DNA from: Alphaproteobacteria bacterium
GTDB lineage: Bacteria > Pseudomonadota > Alphaproteobacteria > UBA6615
NCBI GenBank assembly: GCA_039980135.1
Contig: JBDXCV010000003.1
Location: forward strand, 682,001-746,000
Reading direction: 5' to 3'
DNA: 64,000 nucleotides
Shown: positions 54,635-63,495 of the stretch, piece by piece
Position numbering within the stretch: position 1 is the first letter of the stretch
Layout of the letters: each line of letters starts with the position of its first letter
Notes under the pieces: generated by a model
What the model saw: only the letters and a program-made list of their open reading frames with translations
The model's database searches: none
What the model was told of the DNA's origin: nothing
Program-made: the position numbers and the translations under genes

Positions 54635-55426
54635 TCACTTCTGCAGCGAGCCGTTGCGCTGGTCGCTGACGAGCATCGACCCGGCGGCGTGGGTGATGAA
54701 CATCGGCAATCGTGCATATTCCAGGGCGGCCAGCGCCGTCAGACCGCATCCCCAGTAGATCGGCACCTCGCCGGGTTCCGGCGTCAGCACTTCGCCGAAA
54801 TCGGGCTTGCCGATATCCGCAATTCCCAGCACGGCGGGGTCGCCGATATGAATCGGCGCACCGTGGACCTTTTCGAACCTGCCGGTCACCTCGACCACCT
54901 TGTCCACGTCCTGTTCTGCAAACGGGCGCATGGAGGCGACCATCGGGCCACCGAAGCGCCCGACCGGAATCGTATCCTGTGCGGTCCGGAACAGGGATCC
55001 CTGGATGCCGAGCTCCAGATGCCGGAGGCGAACCCCGGCGTCCAGCAGCGCCTCCTCGACGGAGAACCAGCAGCCGATGGCGACGGCCACGTGGTTGTCC
55101 TGCCACAGGCCGGAAATGTCGGTCGTGCTGTCGGTCTGTTGGCCATCGCGATAGACCCAATATCCGGGCAGGTCGGTCCGGACGTCGATATCCCGACCCA
55201 GCGCCGGCATGGCGGGTTCTCCGGGCACGGTGACGGCCAGAACCGGACAGGCCCGCGCGTTGAGCTCGCAGAACGCGATGAAGTCGTCGGCGTGTTCGGC
55301 CGGCAGAATGGCGAGGTTGGCCTGCACGAAGCCGGGCGCGTGGCCCGTTGTCAGCCCGGCGAAGGCACCCGTTCGCGCCAACTGTCTCAGCTCGGCGGGC
55401 GAAGCGATTTGCCGGTCTATGCCCAT
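54635..55426 (-). CDS. DUF1445 family protein (putative hydro-lyase/D-glutamate cyclase-like)
   Basis: 263 residues of the DUF1445 family. Recognised by GFVQANLAILPAEHADDFIAFCELNARACPVLAVT, IGCWFSVEEALLDAGVRLRHL, PMVASMRPF and HIGDPAVLGIADIGKPDFG. Members are annotated as putative hydro-lyases, and mammalian and some bacterial relatives interconvert D-glutamate and 5-oxo-D-proline. The start overlaps the hydantoinase stop by 10 bases. With that gene it suggests handling of cyclic amides such as hydantoins, dihydropyrimidines or oxoproline. Last gene of the operon. Confidence 0.85.
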   Translation of the reverse strand: MGIDRQIASPAELRQLARTGAFAGLTTGHAPGFVQANLAILPAEHADDFIAFCELNARACPVLAVTVPGEPAMPALGRDIDVRTDLPGYWVYRDGQQTDSTTDISGLWQDNHVAVAIGCWFSVEEALLDAGVRLRHLELGIQGSLFRTAQDTIPVGRFGGPMVASMRPFAEQDVDKVVEVTGRFEKVHGAPIHIGDPAVLGIADIGKPDFGEVLTPEPGEVPIYWGCGLTALAALEYARLPMFITHAAGSMLVSDQRNGSLQK

Positions 55427-56895
55427 CTGCGTGTATCCCCGTCAGGTACCATGGGCTGCACCGGTCCGGGCGGGCCGCATTCGAGGAACTGCCCGTGGTC
55501 GGTCCCTGACCGCAGTTCGCCATTCTCGCAAATGACCTTCCCTCTCGACAGAACGGTCATGGGCCACCCCTGGACGGACATCCCTTCGAATGGCGTGTAA
55601 TCCACATTGTGGTGGAGCATGTTGTTCTCGATGACGACGCGCTTCTCCGGGTCCCAGATTGCGATATCCGCGTCGGAACCGACCGCGATCGTGCCCTTCC
55701 GGGGATACAGTCCGTAGATCCGGGCCGCGTTCGTCGAATTGAGTTCAACAAAGCGTTCCAGGCTTATTCGGCCCGCGATCACGCCCTCGGAAAACAGGAT
55801 GGGCGCGCGTGTCTCCAGTCCCGGCATTCCATTCGCCACCTTGGCGAATGGCGCGTCGGTTCCGAACCGCTTTTTCCCGTCATCGTCGAACCGGTAGGGC
55901 GCGTGGTCGGAAGACAGAATGTCAAACAGCCCGTCCTTGAGGCCTTGCCACAACACCTCCTGGCTCGCCTCGTCGCGGGGCGGCGGCGAACACATGGCCT
56001 TGGCGCCCTCGAAATCGGGCATGTCGAGATCGGCCTCTGTCAGCATGAGATATTGCGGGCATGTCTCGGCCAGAATATTGACGCCCTTTGCCCGGGCACG
56101 GCGAATCTCGTCCGCCGCTTCCTGCCCGGAGACGTGAACGATCAGGATCGGTACGTCGGCGATCTCGGCGAGTGAAATGGCGCGATGCGTCGCCTCACGT
56201 TCGACGACGCCGGGTCGCGACGTCGCGTGATATTTGGGTTCGGTCTTGCCGGCGGCCTCCAGCCGCTCGGTCAGCCAGGACAGGCACTCGAAATTCTCGG
56301 CATGGATCATGACCAGCGCATCCAGTTCGCGCGCCCGGGCGAGGACATCGAGAATTTGCCGGTCGGACAGCACCATCGCCGCGTAGGTCATGTAGACCTT
56401 TATCGATGTATGTCCCGCCGCGACGAGCGCGGGCAATTCCTGGCCGAGAACGGCATTGGTCGGGTCGGAGACAATCAGGTGGAACGCATAGTCGATATGC
56501 GACTGGCCCGCGGCGCGGCGGTGATAGTCGGCAACGGCCGCGCGTACGGACTGCCCGCGATGCTGTACGGCGAACGGGATGATCGTCGTGGTGCCGCCGA
56601 ATGCGGCGGACCGGGAGCCGGACTCGAAACCGTCCGCCATGACCGCGCCGCCCGACGCCAGCCCCTCTGCTTGCGGCTGGTCGAGATGGCAATGTGCGTC
56701 AATTCCGCCCGGCAGGACGAGGTGTCCGGCCGCGTCGATTTCCGTTGTGCCCGCGGTGAGATTCTCGGCCAAAGCGACAATCCGGCCACCGGAGATACCG
56801 ACATCGCATCGGCTGATGCCGCCGGCGGTGGCAACTGTACCGCCGCGAATGACGAGGTCTGGTTTGCCGTGGTTTCCGTGTTCAGTTTTTTGCAT
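55417..56895 (-). CDS. Dihydropyrimidinase/hydantoinase-like amidohydrolase
   Basis: 492 residues. Metal ligands and motifs of cyclic amidohydrolases: DAHCHLDQP (HxH), the carboxylated Lys in IKVYMTYAAM, the His in MIHAEN, ILIVHVSGQ and ILSSDHAPY with the catalytic Asp. FGGTTTIIPFAV is diagnostic of the dihydropyrimidinase subgroup. It opens 5- or 6-membered cyclic diamides such as dihydrouracil or hydantoin; the native substrate is open. It overlaps the small upstream gene by 14 bases and the DUF1445 gene by 10. Confidence 0.9.
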   Translation of the reverse strand: MQKTEHGNHGKPDLVIRGGTVATAGGISRCDVGISGGRIVALAENLTAGTTEIDAAGHLVLPGGIDAHCHLDQPQAEGLASGGAVMADGFESGSRSAAFGGTTTIIPFAVQHRGQSVRAAVADYHRRAAGQSHIDYAFHLIVSDPTNAVLGQELPALVAAGHTSIKVYMTYAAMVLSDRQILDVLARARELDALVMIHAENFECLSWLTERLEAAGKTEPKYHATSRPGVVEREATHRAISLAEIADVPILIVHVSGQEAADEIRRARAKGVNILAETCPQYLMLTEADLDMPDFEGAKAMCSPPPRDEASQEVLWQGLKDGLFDILSSDHAPYRFDDDGKKRFGTDAPFAKVANGMPGLETRAPILFSEGVIAGRISLERFVELNSTNAARIYGLYPRKGTIAVGSDADIAIWDPEKRVVIENNMLHHNVDYTPFEGMSVQGWPMTVLSRGKVICENGELRSGTDHGQFLECGPPGPVQPMVPDGDTRRWA

Positions 56896-57379: not shown

Positions 57380-58207
57380 TTACTGGACGCGGTAGATGGA
57401 CATCACGAAGGCTTCGACGACGAGCAGGATTGCGAAGATCAGAATGCCGACGCCCAGCAGCAGCAGAATTGACGATAGCAAAAGGGCGGTTTCGAAATTC
57501 TCGGCCGCGAACATGATGAGGTAGCCCAACCCGCGTTCGGCCGAGACGAATTCGCCCAGAATGACGCCGATGATGCCGAATGTGACCCCGAGGCGCAGCC
57601 CAGAGAAAATGAACGGCAAGGCGAAAGGGAACTTGATGCGCATGAAAATCTGCAGGCGGCTCGCCATCAACGAGTTCCCCATGCGCTCATATGTCGGGTT
57701 CGTCGCGTTGAGCCCGGAAATTGTTGCAACGAGGACGGGGAAGAACGCGATGAAGACCGAGAAAAGGATTGTCGCTTCGATCTCCTTGCCGAACCACAGG
57801 ACGAAAACCGGTGCCAGTGCGACCTTCGGGATGAGCTGAAAGAACACGACGGTCGGGTAGATCGTATCCATGATGGTTTTCGAGTAGGACACGAGCGTCC
57901 CGAGAAAAATACCGAGCACCGCAGAGGCCAGGATTCCCCAGACCGCGGCCCAGAATGTCGGGCTGGCCTGTTGAATCATCAGCGAAAAGAACTCGATCGA
58001 AGTTTGTGCGACGAGGCTCGGTGCCGGAAGGATGACCGGGCTCACGCCCGTCATTCGCACTCCGAGTTCCCACAATCCGATCAGTACGGCTGCGGCGAGG
58101 ACCGGTTGCGCCAGCCGCAGGAACCAGTCTGCCGCATTTGCGATAATCATTTCCTGCAGGCGTATGCCCGGGCGCAGGCTCTTGGCGGGATCTGGCGCAA
58201 TGGTCAT
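57380..58207 (-). CDS. ABC transporter permease (SsuC/TauC-like), second copy
   Basis: 275 residues with six membrane segments. The EAA-like loop reads MGNSLMASRLQIFMRIKFPFALPFIFSGLR. Family stretches PVILPAPSLVAQ and QLIPKVALAPVFVLWFG are typical of nitrate/taurine/pyrimidine-precursor importers. ATG 58207 overlaps the preceding permease stop (ATGA); longer readings run into that gene. The two permeases presumably form a heterodimer. Confidence 0.92.
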   Translation of the reverse strand: MTIAPDPAKSLRPGIRLQEMIIANAADWFLRLAQPVLAAAVLIGLWELGVRMTGVSPVILPAPSLVAQTSIEFFSLMIQQASPTFWAAVWGILASAVLGIFLGTLVSYSKTIMDTIYPTVVFFQLIPKVALAPVFVLWFGKEIEATILFSVFIAFFPVLVATISGLNATNPTYERMGNSLMASRLQIFMRIKFPFALPFIFSGLRLGVTFGIIGVILGEFVSAERGLGYLIMFAAENFETALLLSSILLLLGVGILIFAILLVVEAFVMSIYRVQ

Positions 58208-59028
58208 CGTGACATCCACCGGCTTGTGAGTATGTCCGCGGCCTGGACGAGGCCATAGAAAGCCAGCCCCATCAGGCACAGCACGGTGATCGAAGCGAGG
58301 ATCAGGTCGGTTTCGAAGTTCGAGGCCCCGAGGAGAATGAGGAAACCGAGACCTTCCGATGACGAAATGAACTCGGCGACGATGACGCCGATGACCGCCA
58401 GCGTGATGGCAATCTTGCAGCCGCTGAAAAAGTAGGGAACGGACGCCGGCAGGCGCACCATCCAGAAGGTCTGCCAACTCGACGCCTTGAGCGCCGTGCA
58501 AAGGCGGACGAGGGATTTGTCCGTGCTCTGCAGGCCCGCGACCATGGAGATCAGGATCGGGAAGAATGCGATAAAGGTTGCGATCGACATCCGGGACTCC
58601 CATCCAATTCCGGCCCAGACGATGAACAGCGGTGTCCAGGCGACCTTGGGGACCAATTGGATTGTCACCAGAAGAGGATATACGGAATCACGGACATATT
58701 TGTTGATGGTGATCGCGGCGGCGAAGCCGATTCCCAGCAGCATGGCGACGAAGAAGCCCGCGATCGAATCGCGCATCGTCGGAACGGTGTGGAACCAGAT
58801 GAGATCGAACCGTTCGATCAGCGCGATCCAGACGAGGCTGGGCGCCGGCAGGATGACCGAAGGGTAGTCGAAATAGGTGACCAGGAACTCCCAGAGAGCC
58901 AGTATGCCCGCCGCAAAAAGAGCCGGATATGCAAAGCTTCGGAGCGTGCCCATGTCGATGCCGACCTCGTCGAGGCGCACAATCAGGGGCTGCCAGACTT
59001 TGCGAACGCCAAGTGCTGAATCGGTCAT
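58204..59028 (-). CDS. ABC transporter permease (SsuC/TauC-like), first copy
   Basis: 274 residues with six membrane segments. The cytoplasmic docking loop is LCTALKASSWQTFWMVRLPASVPYFFSGCK. SVILPAPSLVWIAL and QLVPKVAWTPLFIVWAG align with the second permease, showing ancestral duplication. It lies 30 bases downstream of the ATPase gene. Confidence 0.92.
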   Translation of the reverse strand: MTDSALGVRKVWQPLIVRLDEVGIDMGTLRSFAYPALFAAGILALWEFLVTYFDYPSVILPAPSLVWIALIERFDLIWFHTVPTMRDSIAGFFVAMLLGIGFAAAITINKYVRDSVYPLLVTIQLVPKVAWTPLFIVWAGIGWESRMSIATFIAFFPILISMVAGLQSTDKSLVRLCTALKASSWQTFWMVRLPASVPYFFSGCKIAITLAVIGVIVAEFISSSEGLGFLILLGASNFETDLILASITVLCLMGLAFYGLVQAADILTSRWMSR

Positions 59029-59058: not shown

Positions 59059-59898
59059 TCAGTCGTCTGCCATTCCAGGCAAACTCTGATGTTCGATGCG
59101 CCCGCGCAGATACCCGCAGATTTCGTTGAATTCGGTGGTTTCGCCGATCTCAAGCGTGCGCGGCCGCGGGAACGGAATGGTGATGTCTTCGATGATCCGG
59201 CCTGGCCGGCTGCTCATGACGAGCACCCGGTCGGAAAGGAACACGGCTTCGCGAATGGAGTGCGTCACGAACAATGCCGTCTTGTGATAGCTCTCCCACA
59301 TGCGCATCAGCACGGCGTTCATTTCATCGCGCGTAATCGCATCGAGCGCGCTGAACGGCTCGTCCATGAGCAGCAGTTCGGGCTCGTAAATCAGGGCACG
59401 GCAGATCGCGACACGCTGACGCATGCCCCCCGACAACTGGCCGGGTTTGTGGTCGTAGAATCCGTGCAGCCCGACCTGGTCGAGCAGGGCCTCGGCGCGA
59501 ACGCGAAGATCGTCCGGCGGGCGTTTGAACACGCGATAGGGGAACATCACGTTCTCGATCGCGCTTTTCCATGGCAGCAGGGTCGGGTCCTGAAACATGA
59601 TCCCGATATCCTCGCGCGGTCCGGTCATGGGGGTGCCGCCGACGGAGATGTCGCCCTCTGTAATGTCTTCGAGTCCGCCGGCCATCATCAGCAAAGTGCT
59701 TTTCCCGCATCCGCTGGGTCCGAGGAGCGAGACAAACTGACCGGACTCGATGGTGCAGTCTGTCGGTGCGACGGCGTTCACCGCGCGTCGTGATTTCGGG
59801 TTGTAGGTCTTGCCGACGCCTTCGATTGAAAGGTAGGTCTCCGGCGTTCCCGAGGGAACGCCGGAGGTATCGGCCTGTACTTCTTCAAGCAAAGCCAT
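59059..59898 (-). CDS. ABC transporter ATP-binding protein (SsuB/TauB-like)
   Basis: 279 residues. Walker A GPSGCGKST, Q-loop MFQDPTLLPW, signature LSGGMRQRVAICRAL, Walker B LLLMDEPFSALD and H-loop FVTHSIREA. This matches the nitrate/sulfonate/thiamine-precursor importer ATPases. It starts nine bases after the substrate-binding protein stop. Confidence 0.94.
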   Translation of the reverse strand: MALLEEVQADTSGVPSGTPETYLSIEGVGKTYNPKSRRAVNAVAPTDCTIESGQFVSLLGPSGCGKSTLLMMAGGLEDITEGDISVGGTPMTGPREDIGIMFQDPTLLPWKSAIENVMFPYRVFKRPPDDLRVRAEALLDQVGLHGFYDHKPGQLSGGMRQRVAICRALIYEPELLLMDEPFSALDAITRDEMNAVLMRMWESYHKTALFVTHSIREAVFLSDRVLVMSSRPGRIIEDITIPFPRPRTLEIGETTEFNEICGYLRGRIEHQSLPGMADD

Positions 59899-59907
59899 TG
59901 TTGGTCC

Positions 59908-61035
59908 TTAGCTGACGAGTGCTGAATAGGTGCCGAAAGTCTCTTTGACCTGAGCCCATTCGGCCGCGTTGAGCTTGACGCCGCCCACGAACTCATTGGT
60001 GAACAGACCCGCTGAATCCGGTTTGGTATCGCCGGGCTTCGACGATGACGCGTAGATCGTGTCGGTCATCGAGGCATAGGTCGTCGGGCTCGTGAAGCCG
60101 ATCGCGTTCTCGGTCTGCTCCGGCACCGTGGCGAGCGCCGCCCAGAGACCGAGGCCGACATCGGCCTGCTGCTTCGCCGTGCTCGACAGCTTGAATTCCG
60201 GCACTACGTCGAACATCGTCGCGATCGCCGCTTCCGGGTCGAGCAGGGTTGCCTTGACGCCTTCACACAGACCGACGGCGACAGCCTCGCAAAGCGCCTT
60301 GTTCTTCTCGAAATAGGCCGGCGATGTCATCAGGGAGTTGCCGTAGAAGGGCAGGCCGAACTTCGAATACAGGAACACCTTCGGTGTCTTGCCGGCTGCC
60401 AGCACCTTCGGAACCGCGCTGGTGCCGAAGGCCGAAATGGCATCCACCTGACCATCAATCAGCGCACGTTCGCGGACCTTGTTGTCGAGTGCGATGGATT
60501 TGATGGTTTCCGCATCGACGCCGACATTCTTGTAGAAGGCCGGCAGGAAGGGATACTCGCCCGACGTAAGTGTCGAGCCGACCGTCTTGCCGCCGAGTTC
60601 GCTCGGTGCCTTGATCGGGGAATCGTCGAGCACCACCACGCCCATGGACGTGTCGTAGCTCAATGTTGCCATCGTGATCAGTGGCAGGCCCTTGATCGCC
60701 TGCTGGATTCCGTTCGGGGCCGCGGGAACGCCGAACTCGTACTGGCCCTGGCCGATCTGCTGGACGGCGAGTGCCGAGCCCGAACCCTTTTCGATGCTGA
60801 CCTCGATGCCTTCCTTCTCCCAGAACTGCAGTGCGGCGTATGACCAGGCCGTCGTGCCCTGGGGCAACCAGCCAAGCGTCAGCTTCACTTTGCTCTTGGT
60901 GGCCGCGTACACGGTCTTGGGAATGAATGTCGAGCCGGCCGCGGCTGCGGCGCCGGCGCCAGCGAGCGCGACGAATTTGCGGCGTGAAACGCCGGATTTC
61001 GTGTTGGTCGTATCTGGTGCTTTCTTTTTAGCCAT
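59908..61035 (-). CDS. ABC transporter substrate-binding protein (NMT1/SsuA-like), Tat-exported
   Basis: 375 residues. The N terminus holds a twin-arginine signal (SRRKFVALAGAGAAAAAGS at about 18-36). The mature part is NMT1/THI5-like: LTLGWLPQGTTAWSYAALQFWEKEGIEVSIEKGSG, QIGQGQYEFGVPAA, KTVGSTLTSGEY and DGQVDAISAFG. Members bind aminopyrimidines, sulfonates, nitrate or urea-like compounds. It is the first gene of the importer operon, about 125 bases downstream of a sigma-54 type promoter. Confidence 0.9.
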   Translation of the reverse strand: MAKKKAPDTTNTKSGVSRRKFVALAGAGAAAAAGSTFIPKTVYAATKSKVKLTLGWLPQGTTAWSYAALQFWEKEGIEVSIEKGSGSALAVQQIGQGQYEFGVPAAPNGIQQAIKGLPLITMATLSYDTSMGVVVLDDSPIKAPSELGGKTVGSTLTSGEYPFLPAFYKNVGVDAETIKSIALDNKVRERALIDGQVDAISAFGTSAVPKVLAAGKTPKVFLYSKFGLPFYGNSLMTSPAYFEKNKALCEAVAVGLCEGVKATLLDPEAAIATMFDVVPEFKLSSTAKQQADVGLGLWAALATVPEQTENAIGFTSPTTYASMTDTIYASSSKPGDTKPDSAGLFTNEFVGGVKLNAAEWAQVKETFGTYSALVS

Positions 61036-61169
61036 TTTAACCCTGTTCCTTCTTCAGTTTGCCGTACCGGATTGACCGGGGCGGCGGTGGTATCCGATCG
61101 AAGGTGCTGTTCCCGGCGGGTTTTGCCTTGGCCGTTGCCAGCGTGCATCGATCAACTACCGGTAAGCTT

Positions 61170-61186
61170 TGCAACCGCTATGCCAC
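61170..61186 (-). promoter_or_regulatory. Sigma-54 (-24/-12) promoter of the ABC importer operon
   Basis: On the minus strand the site reads GTGGCATAGCGGTTGCA and fits TGGYAYR-N4-TTGCA at every fixed base except the initial C. The GG (61184-61183) and GC (61172-61171) have the required spacing. Predicted transcription start about 61160, 125 bases before the substrate-binding protein gene. Confidence 0.75.
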
Positions 61187-61331
61187 AGCGGCCTCGATCC
61201 CCAAGTCGCGGAATTCCGGGATTCGGCGCGGTGTCGGGATTCCGTAAATGTTCATCTCGTGTGCAGGCCGCATGCGGATTGTGCAGTGCAGCGTCACCGA
61301 AATGGCGCGTTTTAACGAATTGCCGCGGCGA

Positions 61332-61823
61332 TCACGGCTGCAGAACCAGATCCACGCCATAGCTGGAAAGCAGGTCGCAATCCTGGTGATCGACGATGTT
61401 GGTGTCGGCCAGTTCGAGATTGAAGAAGCCGACTTCCGCAGGTGTGAAAAACGGCCCCACATGCCAGGTGCCGAGATGCAGCTTGATCGCCACGTCTCCG
61501 GGTACCCGGAAGGCCCTGATCTCGTCGGGTTCGGGTTCTTTCCCGGGCGGGTCGGACGGGGCGGCGACCGCGATGTACCAATCCGCTCCGCCGACCGAGG
61601 CCAGACACTGGGTGACCTGCTTGTGGCGCGTGATCCGGTCGAAGCCCATGCCGCGGTTGGGCAGGCGCATGATGTAGAAGCGCGGCGTCCCGTGACTCAG
61701 ATCCAGCTGGGCGTCGTGATCACCAAAAGGGACCCCGTCTTCCGTCACCTCGATGACATCGCCATAGGGGGCAAACGCCTCGGACGTGATCAGGCTGGGG
61801 GTGAGTGTGCGCGTGTTGGTCAT
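61332..61823 (-). CDS. allA: Ureidoglycolate lyase
   Basis: 163 residues of the AllA cupin-like family (PF04115). Recognised by ITSEAFAPYGDVIEV, ITRHKQVTQCLASVGGADWYIAVAAP, and the C-terminal LHLGTWHVGPFF with the family His. It splits ureidoglycolate into glyoxylate and urea in allantoin breakdown. ATG 61823 follows AAGGAG; an in-frame extension to 61862 would start inside the sigma-54 promoter. The next gene (59908) is co-directional but has its own promoter. Confidence 0.88.
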   Translation of the reverse strand: MTNTRTLTPSLITSEAFAPYGDVIEVTEDGVPFGDHDAQLDLSHGTPRFYIMRLPNRGMGFDRITRHKQVTQCLASVGGADWYIAVAAPSDPPGKEPEPDEIRAFRVPGDVAIKLHLGTWHVGPFFTPAEVGFFNLELADTNIVDHQDCDLLSSYGVDLVLQP

Positions 61824-61852
61824 ATCTGCTGAATCTCCTTGCCGTCTGAAAC

Positions 61853-61869
61853 TGCAAGCCATGTGCCAG
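61853..61869 (-). promoter_or_regulatory. Sigma-54 (-24/-12) promoter of allA
   Basis: On the minus strand the site reads CTGGCACATGGCTTGCA, a complete match to CTGGYAYR-N4-TTGCA. The predicted start is at about 61843, leaving a 20-base leader that holds the AAGGAG ribosome site (61840-61835) before ATG 61823. Confidence 0.85.
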
Positions 61870-61907
61870 CGCTATGCCCGGGAACCGTCCTGTGTTCGCA
61901 CCGGTCC

Positions 61908-61921
61908 GGCGTTCGAACGCC
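61908..61921. promoter_or_regulatory. Perfect 14-bp palindrome between divergent sigma-54 promoters
   Basis: GGCGTTCGAACGCC is its own reverse complement. It lies about 40 bases upstream of the allA -24 element and about 84 bases upstream of the flavoprotein -24 element. It is a candidate site for an enhancer-binding protein or a repressor serving both genes. It does not look like the NtrC consensus. Confidence 0.5.
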
Positions 61922-62004
61922 CATGCTTTGAGCAACCTGACGGTAAATCAGGCAACCGGCAGCCCGCCGGAGCTCCGTCATGCCGGATATGCAGGCCTTC
62001 GCGT

Positions 62005-62021
62005 CTGGTATGTCGATTGCA
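62005..62021 (+). promoter_or_regulatory. Sigma-54 (-24/-12) promoter of the flavoprotein gene
   Basis: CTGGTATGTCGATTGCA matches CTGGYAYR-N4-TTGCA completely. The predicted start is at about 62031, with a leader of about 28 bases that includes GAAAGA (62046-62051) before ATG 62059. Confidence 0.85.
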
Positions 62022-62058
62022 GTTGTTGAGATAAGAACCGCAATAGAAAGACACCGCC

Positions 62059-63495
62059 ATGCCGGATCCCATTGGCCTCGATGCACTTGAAGAATTGATC
62101 CGCCACGATCTCGAGATCATGGCGTTTCCCGACCAGGATTGGGTTCTTCCCCGCCCGGAAGTGCCAGATGGCGGCGTGCTGAACTGCGCGATCATAGGCG
62201 GCGGCCAGTATGGACTGGGCGCGGCCTTCGCGCTGGCCCGGGAATGCGTGCCGGATGTGCGCGTGTTCGACTCCAACCCTGTGGGCATGGAAGGGCCCTG
62301 GGTCACATTTGCGCGGATGGAAATGCTGCGGACGCCGAAGCAGATGACCAACCTCGATATCGGGTTCCCGAACCTTACCTTCCGCGCCTGGTATGAGGCG
62401 CAGTTCGGTTGTGATGCCTGGAACGATATGTTTCGCATCCCGCGTGTGATGTGGATGGACTACCTGATCTGGTATCGCAGGATACTGAATGTGCCGGTGC
62501 AGAATGACTCCCTTGTCGAGGACATTGTGCCGGTGGACGATGACCTGTTGCGCCTGACGATAAACCGGGCCGGGACTGCACAACATGTTCATGCGCGCAC
62601 GGTCATTGTTTCGACGGGGACCGAAGGCCTCGGCAGCCGCAGTATCCCGGCATCCATCCGGGCGCTGCCCAAGTGGCTTTGGGCACACTCGAACGAAATC
62701 ATCGACATGCGCGGATTCGCCGGTAAGCGGATCGGTGTTCTGGGAAGCGGCGCGTCAGCCTACGACGCCGCAATCGCGGCGGTCGACGCCGGCGCGGTAA
62801 GTGCCAGGATATGTTTCCGACGCGCGCAGATCCCGACGCAAAACCCGCGCCGCAGGATGGAAAACTCGGGCTATCTCTCACATTTCCCGGAGCTTCGCGA
62901 CGCGCACCGCTGGTCTTATGTGCAGCACCTCTATTCGATCGGCCAGGGCCCGCCGGAACCGACTTTTACCAAGGCGATGTCCTATGACGCGATATCCCTG
63001 CATCCGGCTTCGCCCTGGGAGCAGGTTGAGCTGGCGGCGGATGGCAGCCTGCGGGTTGGAACCGGTTCGCAGACGTTCGAATTCGATTACCTGATCCTGG
63101 CGACCGGGAATTATGCGGATCTCGGGAGCCGGCCCGAGATGGCGTCCCTGATTGATGATATCGCGGTGTGGGGCGAACGCTACACGCCCCCGATCGAGCG
63201 TGAGGATGTCCGGTTGAACGGATATCCGTATCTCGGGAAGTTCGGAGAGTTTACCGAGAAAGTTCCGGGCACGGCACCCTGGTTGTCGCGCGTGTTCAAC
63301 GTGTCACGAGGGGCAGATTTGAGCCTCGGGCCGCTGTCATCATCCAGCAGCAACATGAAGTACACCCTGCCGCGCATTGTGAAAGGCGTGACCCGGCAAC
63401 TCTTCCTGGACGGCGCCGATGCCATGCTGGAAGACGTGGTGGGCGGGATCCATGACGAACTGACGCCCGAGATTCTGGCGAGCAACGCCGCCTAG
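62059..63495 (+). CDS. FAD/NAD(P)-binding flavoprotein monooxygenase-like protein
   Basis: 478 residues. FAD-binding Rossmann motif GGGQYG (about 47-52) with VRVFDSNPVGMEGPW, and a second nucleotide motif GVLGSGASAYDAAI (about 225-238) typical of NADPH-binding in FMO and N-hydroxylating enzymes. A late ATGNYADLG stretch is also typical of the group. The reaction may be N- or C-hydroxylation of a nitrogen compound; the substrate is unknown. It is divergent from allA, behind its own sigma-54 promoter. It ends 4 bases into the convergent deacetylase gene. Confidence 0.85.
   Translation: MPDPIGLDALEELIRHDLEIMAFPDQDWVLPRPEVPDGGVLNCAIIGGGQYGLGAAFALARECVPDVRVFDSNPVGMEGPWVTFARMEMLRTPKQMTNLDIGFPNLTFRAWYEAQFGCDAWNDMFRIPRVMWMDYLIWYRRILNVPVQNDSLVEDIVPVDDDLLRLTINRAGTAQHVHARTVIVSTGTEGLGSRSIPASIRALPKWLWAHSNEIIDMRGFAGKRIGVLGSGASAYDAAIAAVDAGAVSARICFRRAQIPTQNPRRRMENSGYLSHFPELRDAHRWSYVQHLYSIGQGPPEPTFTKAMSYDAISLHPASPWEQVELAADGSLRVGTGSQTFEFDYLILATGNYADLGSRPEMASLIDDIAVWGERYTPPIEREDVRLNGYPYLGKFGEFTEKVPGTAPWLSRVFNVSRGADLSLGPLSSSSSNMKYTLPRIVKGVTRQLFLDGADAMLEDVVGGIHDELTPEILASNAA

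Follow-up and report, generated by a model that had tools for sequence, protein, structure and literature searches.

The -24/-12 site upstream of the AllA-like gene

The site at positions 61853–61869 (minus strand) raised the question of whether the AllA-like gene behind it is transcribed from a sigma-54 (RpoN) promoter, and whether such a promoter stands alone or belongs to a set. The window, the whole 64-kb stretch of DNA that was analysed, corresponds to C3:682001-746000 of a 3.76 Mb genome that is ~99% complete. Judged from the sequence, the site is predicted, with a probability of about 0.88, to be a sigma-54 promoter and one of at least seven that would switch on a single gene cluster.

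Read from 61869 to 61853, the site was CTGGCACATGGCTTGCA. Every fixed base of CTGGYAYR-N4-TTGCA was matched, with GG at -24 and GC at -12 separated by 10 bases, and this agreed with the earlier note, which had described a perfect sigma-54 site with correct GG/GC spacing. The site showed no mismatch to TGGCAC-N5-TTGC and was the sole zero-mismatch match to this pattern in the window. One perfect YTGGCAYR-N4-TTGCW site (GG/GC fixed) was seen in the 64-kb window, versus ~0.025 expected, a coarse figure obtained from first-order Markov simulations (n = 40). The predicted promoter had a perfect counterpart, CTGGCATAGCCCTTGCA, in the related genome G003.

The sequence downstream of the site, GTTTCAGACGGCAAGGAGATTCAGCAGATATG, contained ATG 61823 on the minus strand. 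A ribosome-binding site, AAGGAG (61835–61840, minus strand), preceded this codon and was kept as GAGGAG in G003; both elements had been placed behind the promoter in the earlier note. Transcription of the AllA-like gene was predicted to start at ~61842, giving a leader of ~19 nt, and the start of 61843 predicted previously is close to this position. An alternative start, ATG 61862, falls within the promoter itself, ahead of where the transcript is predicted to begin; ATG 61823, which has the ribosome site and is retained in G003, was preferred. A weaker -24/-12-like site, CGGGCATAGCGCTGGCA (61864–61880, minus strand), with two mismatches and offset by 11 bases, overlapped the main site and is probably fortuitous. 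No Rfam RNA element was found in the intergenic stretch around the site.

Companion promoters across the cluster

A single consensus match is weak evidence by itself, so the case for sigma-54 is carried by the neighbouring sites and their conservation. Companion sites were defined by fixed GG and GC, at most two other mismatches, the coding strand, and a position ≤150 bp upstream of a gene start. When the window and 30 kb beyond it were scanned, seven cluster genes were headed by correctly oriented sites, the flagged one and six more. The predicted sigma-54 promoter of the substrate-binding-protein operon, GTGGCATAGCGGTTGCA (61170–61186, minus strand; GTGGCACGACGGTTGCA in G003), preceded ATG 61035 with a leader of ~124 nt. 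The divergent flavin oxidoreductase gene had a predicted sigma-54 promoter, CTGGTATGTCGATTGCA (62005–62021, plus strand; ATGGTACGTGGTTTGCA in G003), with a leader of ~27 nt before ATG 62059. Beyond the window edge (L041), -24/-12 sites were located upstream of Rieske oxygenases 1, 2, and 3 (ACGGCATGGTCCTTGCA, ACGGCACGGTAGTTGCA, and CTGGCACCCGTCTTGCA, respectively) and of the isochorismatase gene (GTGGCATGTATCGTGCA). The predicted leaders were 17–37 nt at six of the seven promoters, the substrate-binding protein being the exception.

A site within 150 bp upstream was present at 7 of 11 cluster gene starts, which were picked by the analyst. The starts of the FMN reductase, creatininase, amidase, and second hydantoinase/dihydroorotase-like genes had no site within 150 bp. 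Fourteen sites were counted in the 40 kb of the cluster, where ~3.6 would be expected, versus 4 in the preceding 54 kb. The background rate, taken from the 4 sites on both strands of the first 54 kb, was well below 1% per 150-bp stretch. In a genome-wide pattern search, TGGCAY-N5-TTGCW matched 19 times and the reversed control pattern 5 times. Of the 19, two were located here, 683 bp apart, and a third preceded a Rieske gene. Other perfect sites were found ahead of a flagellin-like gene and several transporter binding-protein genes. Elsewhere in the genome, a two-mismatch -24/-12 site, GTGGCACAAACCATGCT, was located upstream of a P-II (glnB-type) gene (L127, ~1411; C13).

Conservation of the promoters in a relative

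G003, which represents another genus of the same family, was the only other genome searched in the family that carried the cluster. Its AllA-like protein was 72% identical, and rpoN was present. All four comparable promoters were found at the same places, with 36/36 fixed bases retained, whereas the spacers matched at 11/20 positions and the 60-base upstream flanks at 107/240. The flavin oxidoreductase promoter had the same deviation, TGGTA, in both genomes. As judged from this single comparison genome, the pattern is that of a constrained promoter rather than of general similarity.

Searches for AllA-like orthologues for footprinting, in the order, the class, and genome collections, returned one close relative, G003 (JAEPNS010000368), and a few distant ones. 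The distant homologues (43–59% identity) had no comparable site directly before the gene, and the flavin oxidoreductase homologues scanned elsewhere in the class had no -24/-12 site within one mismatch.

Sigma-54 machinery and the candidate activator

The genome contains one rpoN gene (PF04552 match at C3:36027, 223 bits). Four strong sigma-54 activator domains were also found, here named from sequence. The GAFTGA motif was intact in three of them, NtrC-like (C13:220127), FlbD-like (C9:18546), and LuxO-like (C7:4194), and was not found in the fourth, probably NtrX. This check matters because the loop has been lost from the NtrC proteins of Caulobacter and Rhodobacterales, which function with sigma-70 (PMC10274813). 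Near the LuxO-like activator gene, two consensus sites were located 251 bp apart (G000:C7:3146-3412).

The sigma-54 consensus has been given as TGGCACnnTTnTTGC in E. coli (PMC8743547) and as TGGCAC-N5-7-TTGCT (PMC12316311). The site before the AllA-like gene shared all fixed bases and the spacing, and rpoN and GAFTGA-containing activators were encoded in the genome. However, all seven cluster promoters ended in A rather than T, and the cluster was without an activator box matching the E. coli NtrC consensus. No E. coli-type NtrC box (TGCACC-N5-GGTGCA-like) upstream of any of the promoters rose above shuffled controls; the best matches had 3–5 mismatches and were equalled by shuffles in 10–100% of cases. 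The NtrC motifs of alphaproteobacteria can differ from that of E. coli (PMC10274813).

NtrC would be the likeliest activator of the cluster promoters, a natural guess given that RpoN also acts on other scavenging operons, E. coli rut among them (PMC8743547). There is a real but lesser chance that the promoters depend on sigma-54 and respond to a different activator, the LuxO-like protein, the FlbD-like protein, or NtrX. The lack of a classical NtrC box above chance and the presence of four activators in the genome, with GAFTGA carried by both the LuxO-like and FlbD-like proteins, are consistent with such a protein, whereas the flanking genes encode uptake and hydrolysis of nitrogen compounds, the usual business of NtrC, and other perfect sites precede transporter binding-protein genes as well as the flagellin-like gene, which is the expected FlbD target.

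Two candidate activator sites were aligned with G003. The first, TGCTCAAAGCATGGGCG (61918–61934, minus strand; TGCACAAAGCGTGAGCG in G003), was common to the two divergent promoters, and the second, TGCACAATCCGCATGCG (61269–61285, minus strand; TGCACAAAGCGCGCGCG in G003), was upstream of the substrate-binding-protein promoter. A TGC(A/T)CAA..C....GCG block, defined after the alignments had been viewed, was kept in G003 and present at both promoter regions of the window. Zero-mismatch matches to this post hoc block, TGCWCAANSCRYRNGCG, were confined to its two source sites, and weaker matches occurred at chance level. The TGCWCAA-type block as a putative activator site is a lead only.

Chance occurrence and non-initiating roles

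It is improbable that the -24/-12 match arose by chance and that a housekeeping promoter or read-through drives the gene. Consensus scans yield false positives, the genome is GC-rich, and the count of TGGCAC-N5-TTGC in the window with at most two mismatches did not exceed that in shuffles (61 vs 66 expected), but the perfect site, its sevenfold recurrence ahead of gene starts, and the complete retention of the fixed bases in G003 argue against coincidence, as does the absence of a sigma-70-like promoter from 61030–62100. It is very improbable that sigma-54 holoenzyme at this site mainly blocks or times transcription instead of initiating it at the AllA-like gene, since the sites face start codons with short leaders at six of seven, although E. 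coli sigma-54 maps to many sites other than classical promoters, some of them intragenic (PMC4591121).

Identity of the AllA-like protein

The gene behind the predicted promoter (61332–61823, minus strand) encodes a 163-residue protein of the AllA family (Ureidogly_lyase, PF04115) that is divergent from proven AllA. It passed the Pfam PF04115 gathering cut-off of 23 with 48.4 bits and shared this domain with AllA (PDB codes 1XSQ and 2BDR), to which it gave a weak phmmer match (E ~2e-4). However, its best NCBIfam ureidoglycolate-lyase model gave 35.7 bits versus a cut-off of 230, and it was far under the cut-offs of all these models (160–315). By these scores, the protein is a distant cousin of ureidoglycolate lyase, and the name is unsupported.

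A second AllA-family gene was located ~30 kb away (C3:773556-773966, equivalent to L042:11557-11967; minus strand). Its matched stretch scored 222 bits with an NCBIfam ureidoglycolate-lyase model, below that model's 260, and the gene is probably the true allA of the genome. A perfect -24/-12 site near this copy, at C3:771848, was >900 bp from any clear downstream gene start and is probably not a promoter. The literature searched contained no relevant link between ureidoglycolate lyase and RpoN. The earlier proposal of RpoN control of ureidoglycolate lyase is strongly supported for the sigma-54 promoter, on the basis of its sequence, rpoN, the GAFTGA activators, the six companion sites, and conservation, and is unsupported for the gene name, given the low scores and the better AllA ~30 kb away.

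Gene content of the cluster

The operon downstream of the AllA-like gene, all on the minus strand, begins with an NMT1-type ABC substrate-binding protein (59908–61035), followed by an ABC ATPase (59059–59898), two ABC permeases (58204–59028 and 57380–58603), and a dihydropyrimidinase/D-hydantoinase that passed NCBIfam cut-offs (55417–56895). A putative D-glutamate cyclase-family hydro-lyase (54635–55426, minus strand) and a PuuE-like deacetylase were also encoded on the window side of the cluster. The divergent flavin oxidoreductase, an FAD/NAD(P)-binding monooxygenase-like protein (62059–63495, plus strand), had a paralogue at G000:C6:102684-104060 and homologues in ~26 of 385 class genomes.

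Past the edge of the window, Rieske/VanA_C oxygenase genes, three in number and each with its -24/-12 site (L041:4398-16692), were interleaved with amidohydrolase genes. A cytosine-deaminase-type amidohydrolase (above cut-off), a RutB/biuret-amidohydrolase-like isochorismatase (under cut-off), a creatininase-family protein, an amidase, and an M20 hydrolase were also encoded there. From this gene content, the cluster looks like one for nitrogen-heterocycle scavenging.

The rutABCDEFG promoter of E. coli is an RpoN target (PMC8743547). In both systems, RpoN promoters, predicted ones here, head genes for nitrogen-heterocycle breakdown, and the isochorismatase is RutB-like, below cut-off. However, rut is one operon with one promoter, whereas at least seven promoters serve many small units here, and the cluster adds three Rieske oxygenases and a hydantoinase.

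Proposed regulon and its significance

In the proposed mechanism, RNA polymerase carrying RpoN would form a closed complex at GG(-24)/GC(-12). This complex would be opened under ammonium scarcity by an enhancer-binding protein of the AAA+ type, NtrC being the most likely. The AllA-like gene, the ABC transporter and hydantoinase genes, the flavin oxidoreductase gene, and the isochorismatase gene would each have their own promoter, and likewise the three Rieske oxygenase genes with their downstream hydrolases. Through this set of at least seven promoters, the patchily distributed cluster would be activated as a whole, and with it the uptake and degradation of a nitrogen-rich heterocycle, which would be hydantoin-, pyrimidine-, or purine-like. 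We infer that transcription would start at these sites and that nitrogen limitation would be the signal.

Tentatively, the cluster may represent an alphaproteobacterial pathway for emergency nitrogen, organised as one sigma-54 regulon, with almost every unit having its own sigma-54 promoter, under an activator that recognises TGCWCAANSCRYRNGCG, unlike the classical NtrC box. The three Rieske oxygenases, the flavin oxidoreductase, the AllA-like enzyme, the hydantoinase, and the amidases would then degrade a nitrogen heterocycle, a pathway that, taken jointly with that regulation, is possible rather than probable.

The promoter mechanism is ordinary, and it is the extent of the promoter set that is useful. 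Membership of the flagged promoter in a set goes beyond what the earlier note recognised, and the scores of the AllA-like protein warn against naming its gene ureidoglycolate lyase. One consensus match is thus turned into a testable regulon prediction with seven promoters, one regulator class, and one inducing condition. This prediction would tie the catabolic cluster to nitrogen scavenging and may offer a route to finding its substrate.
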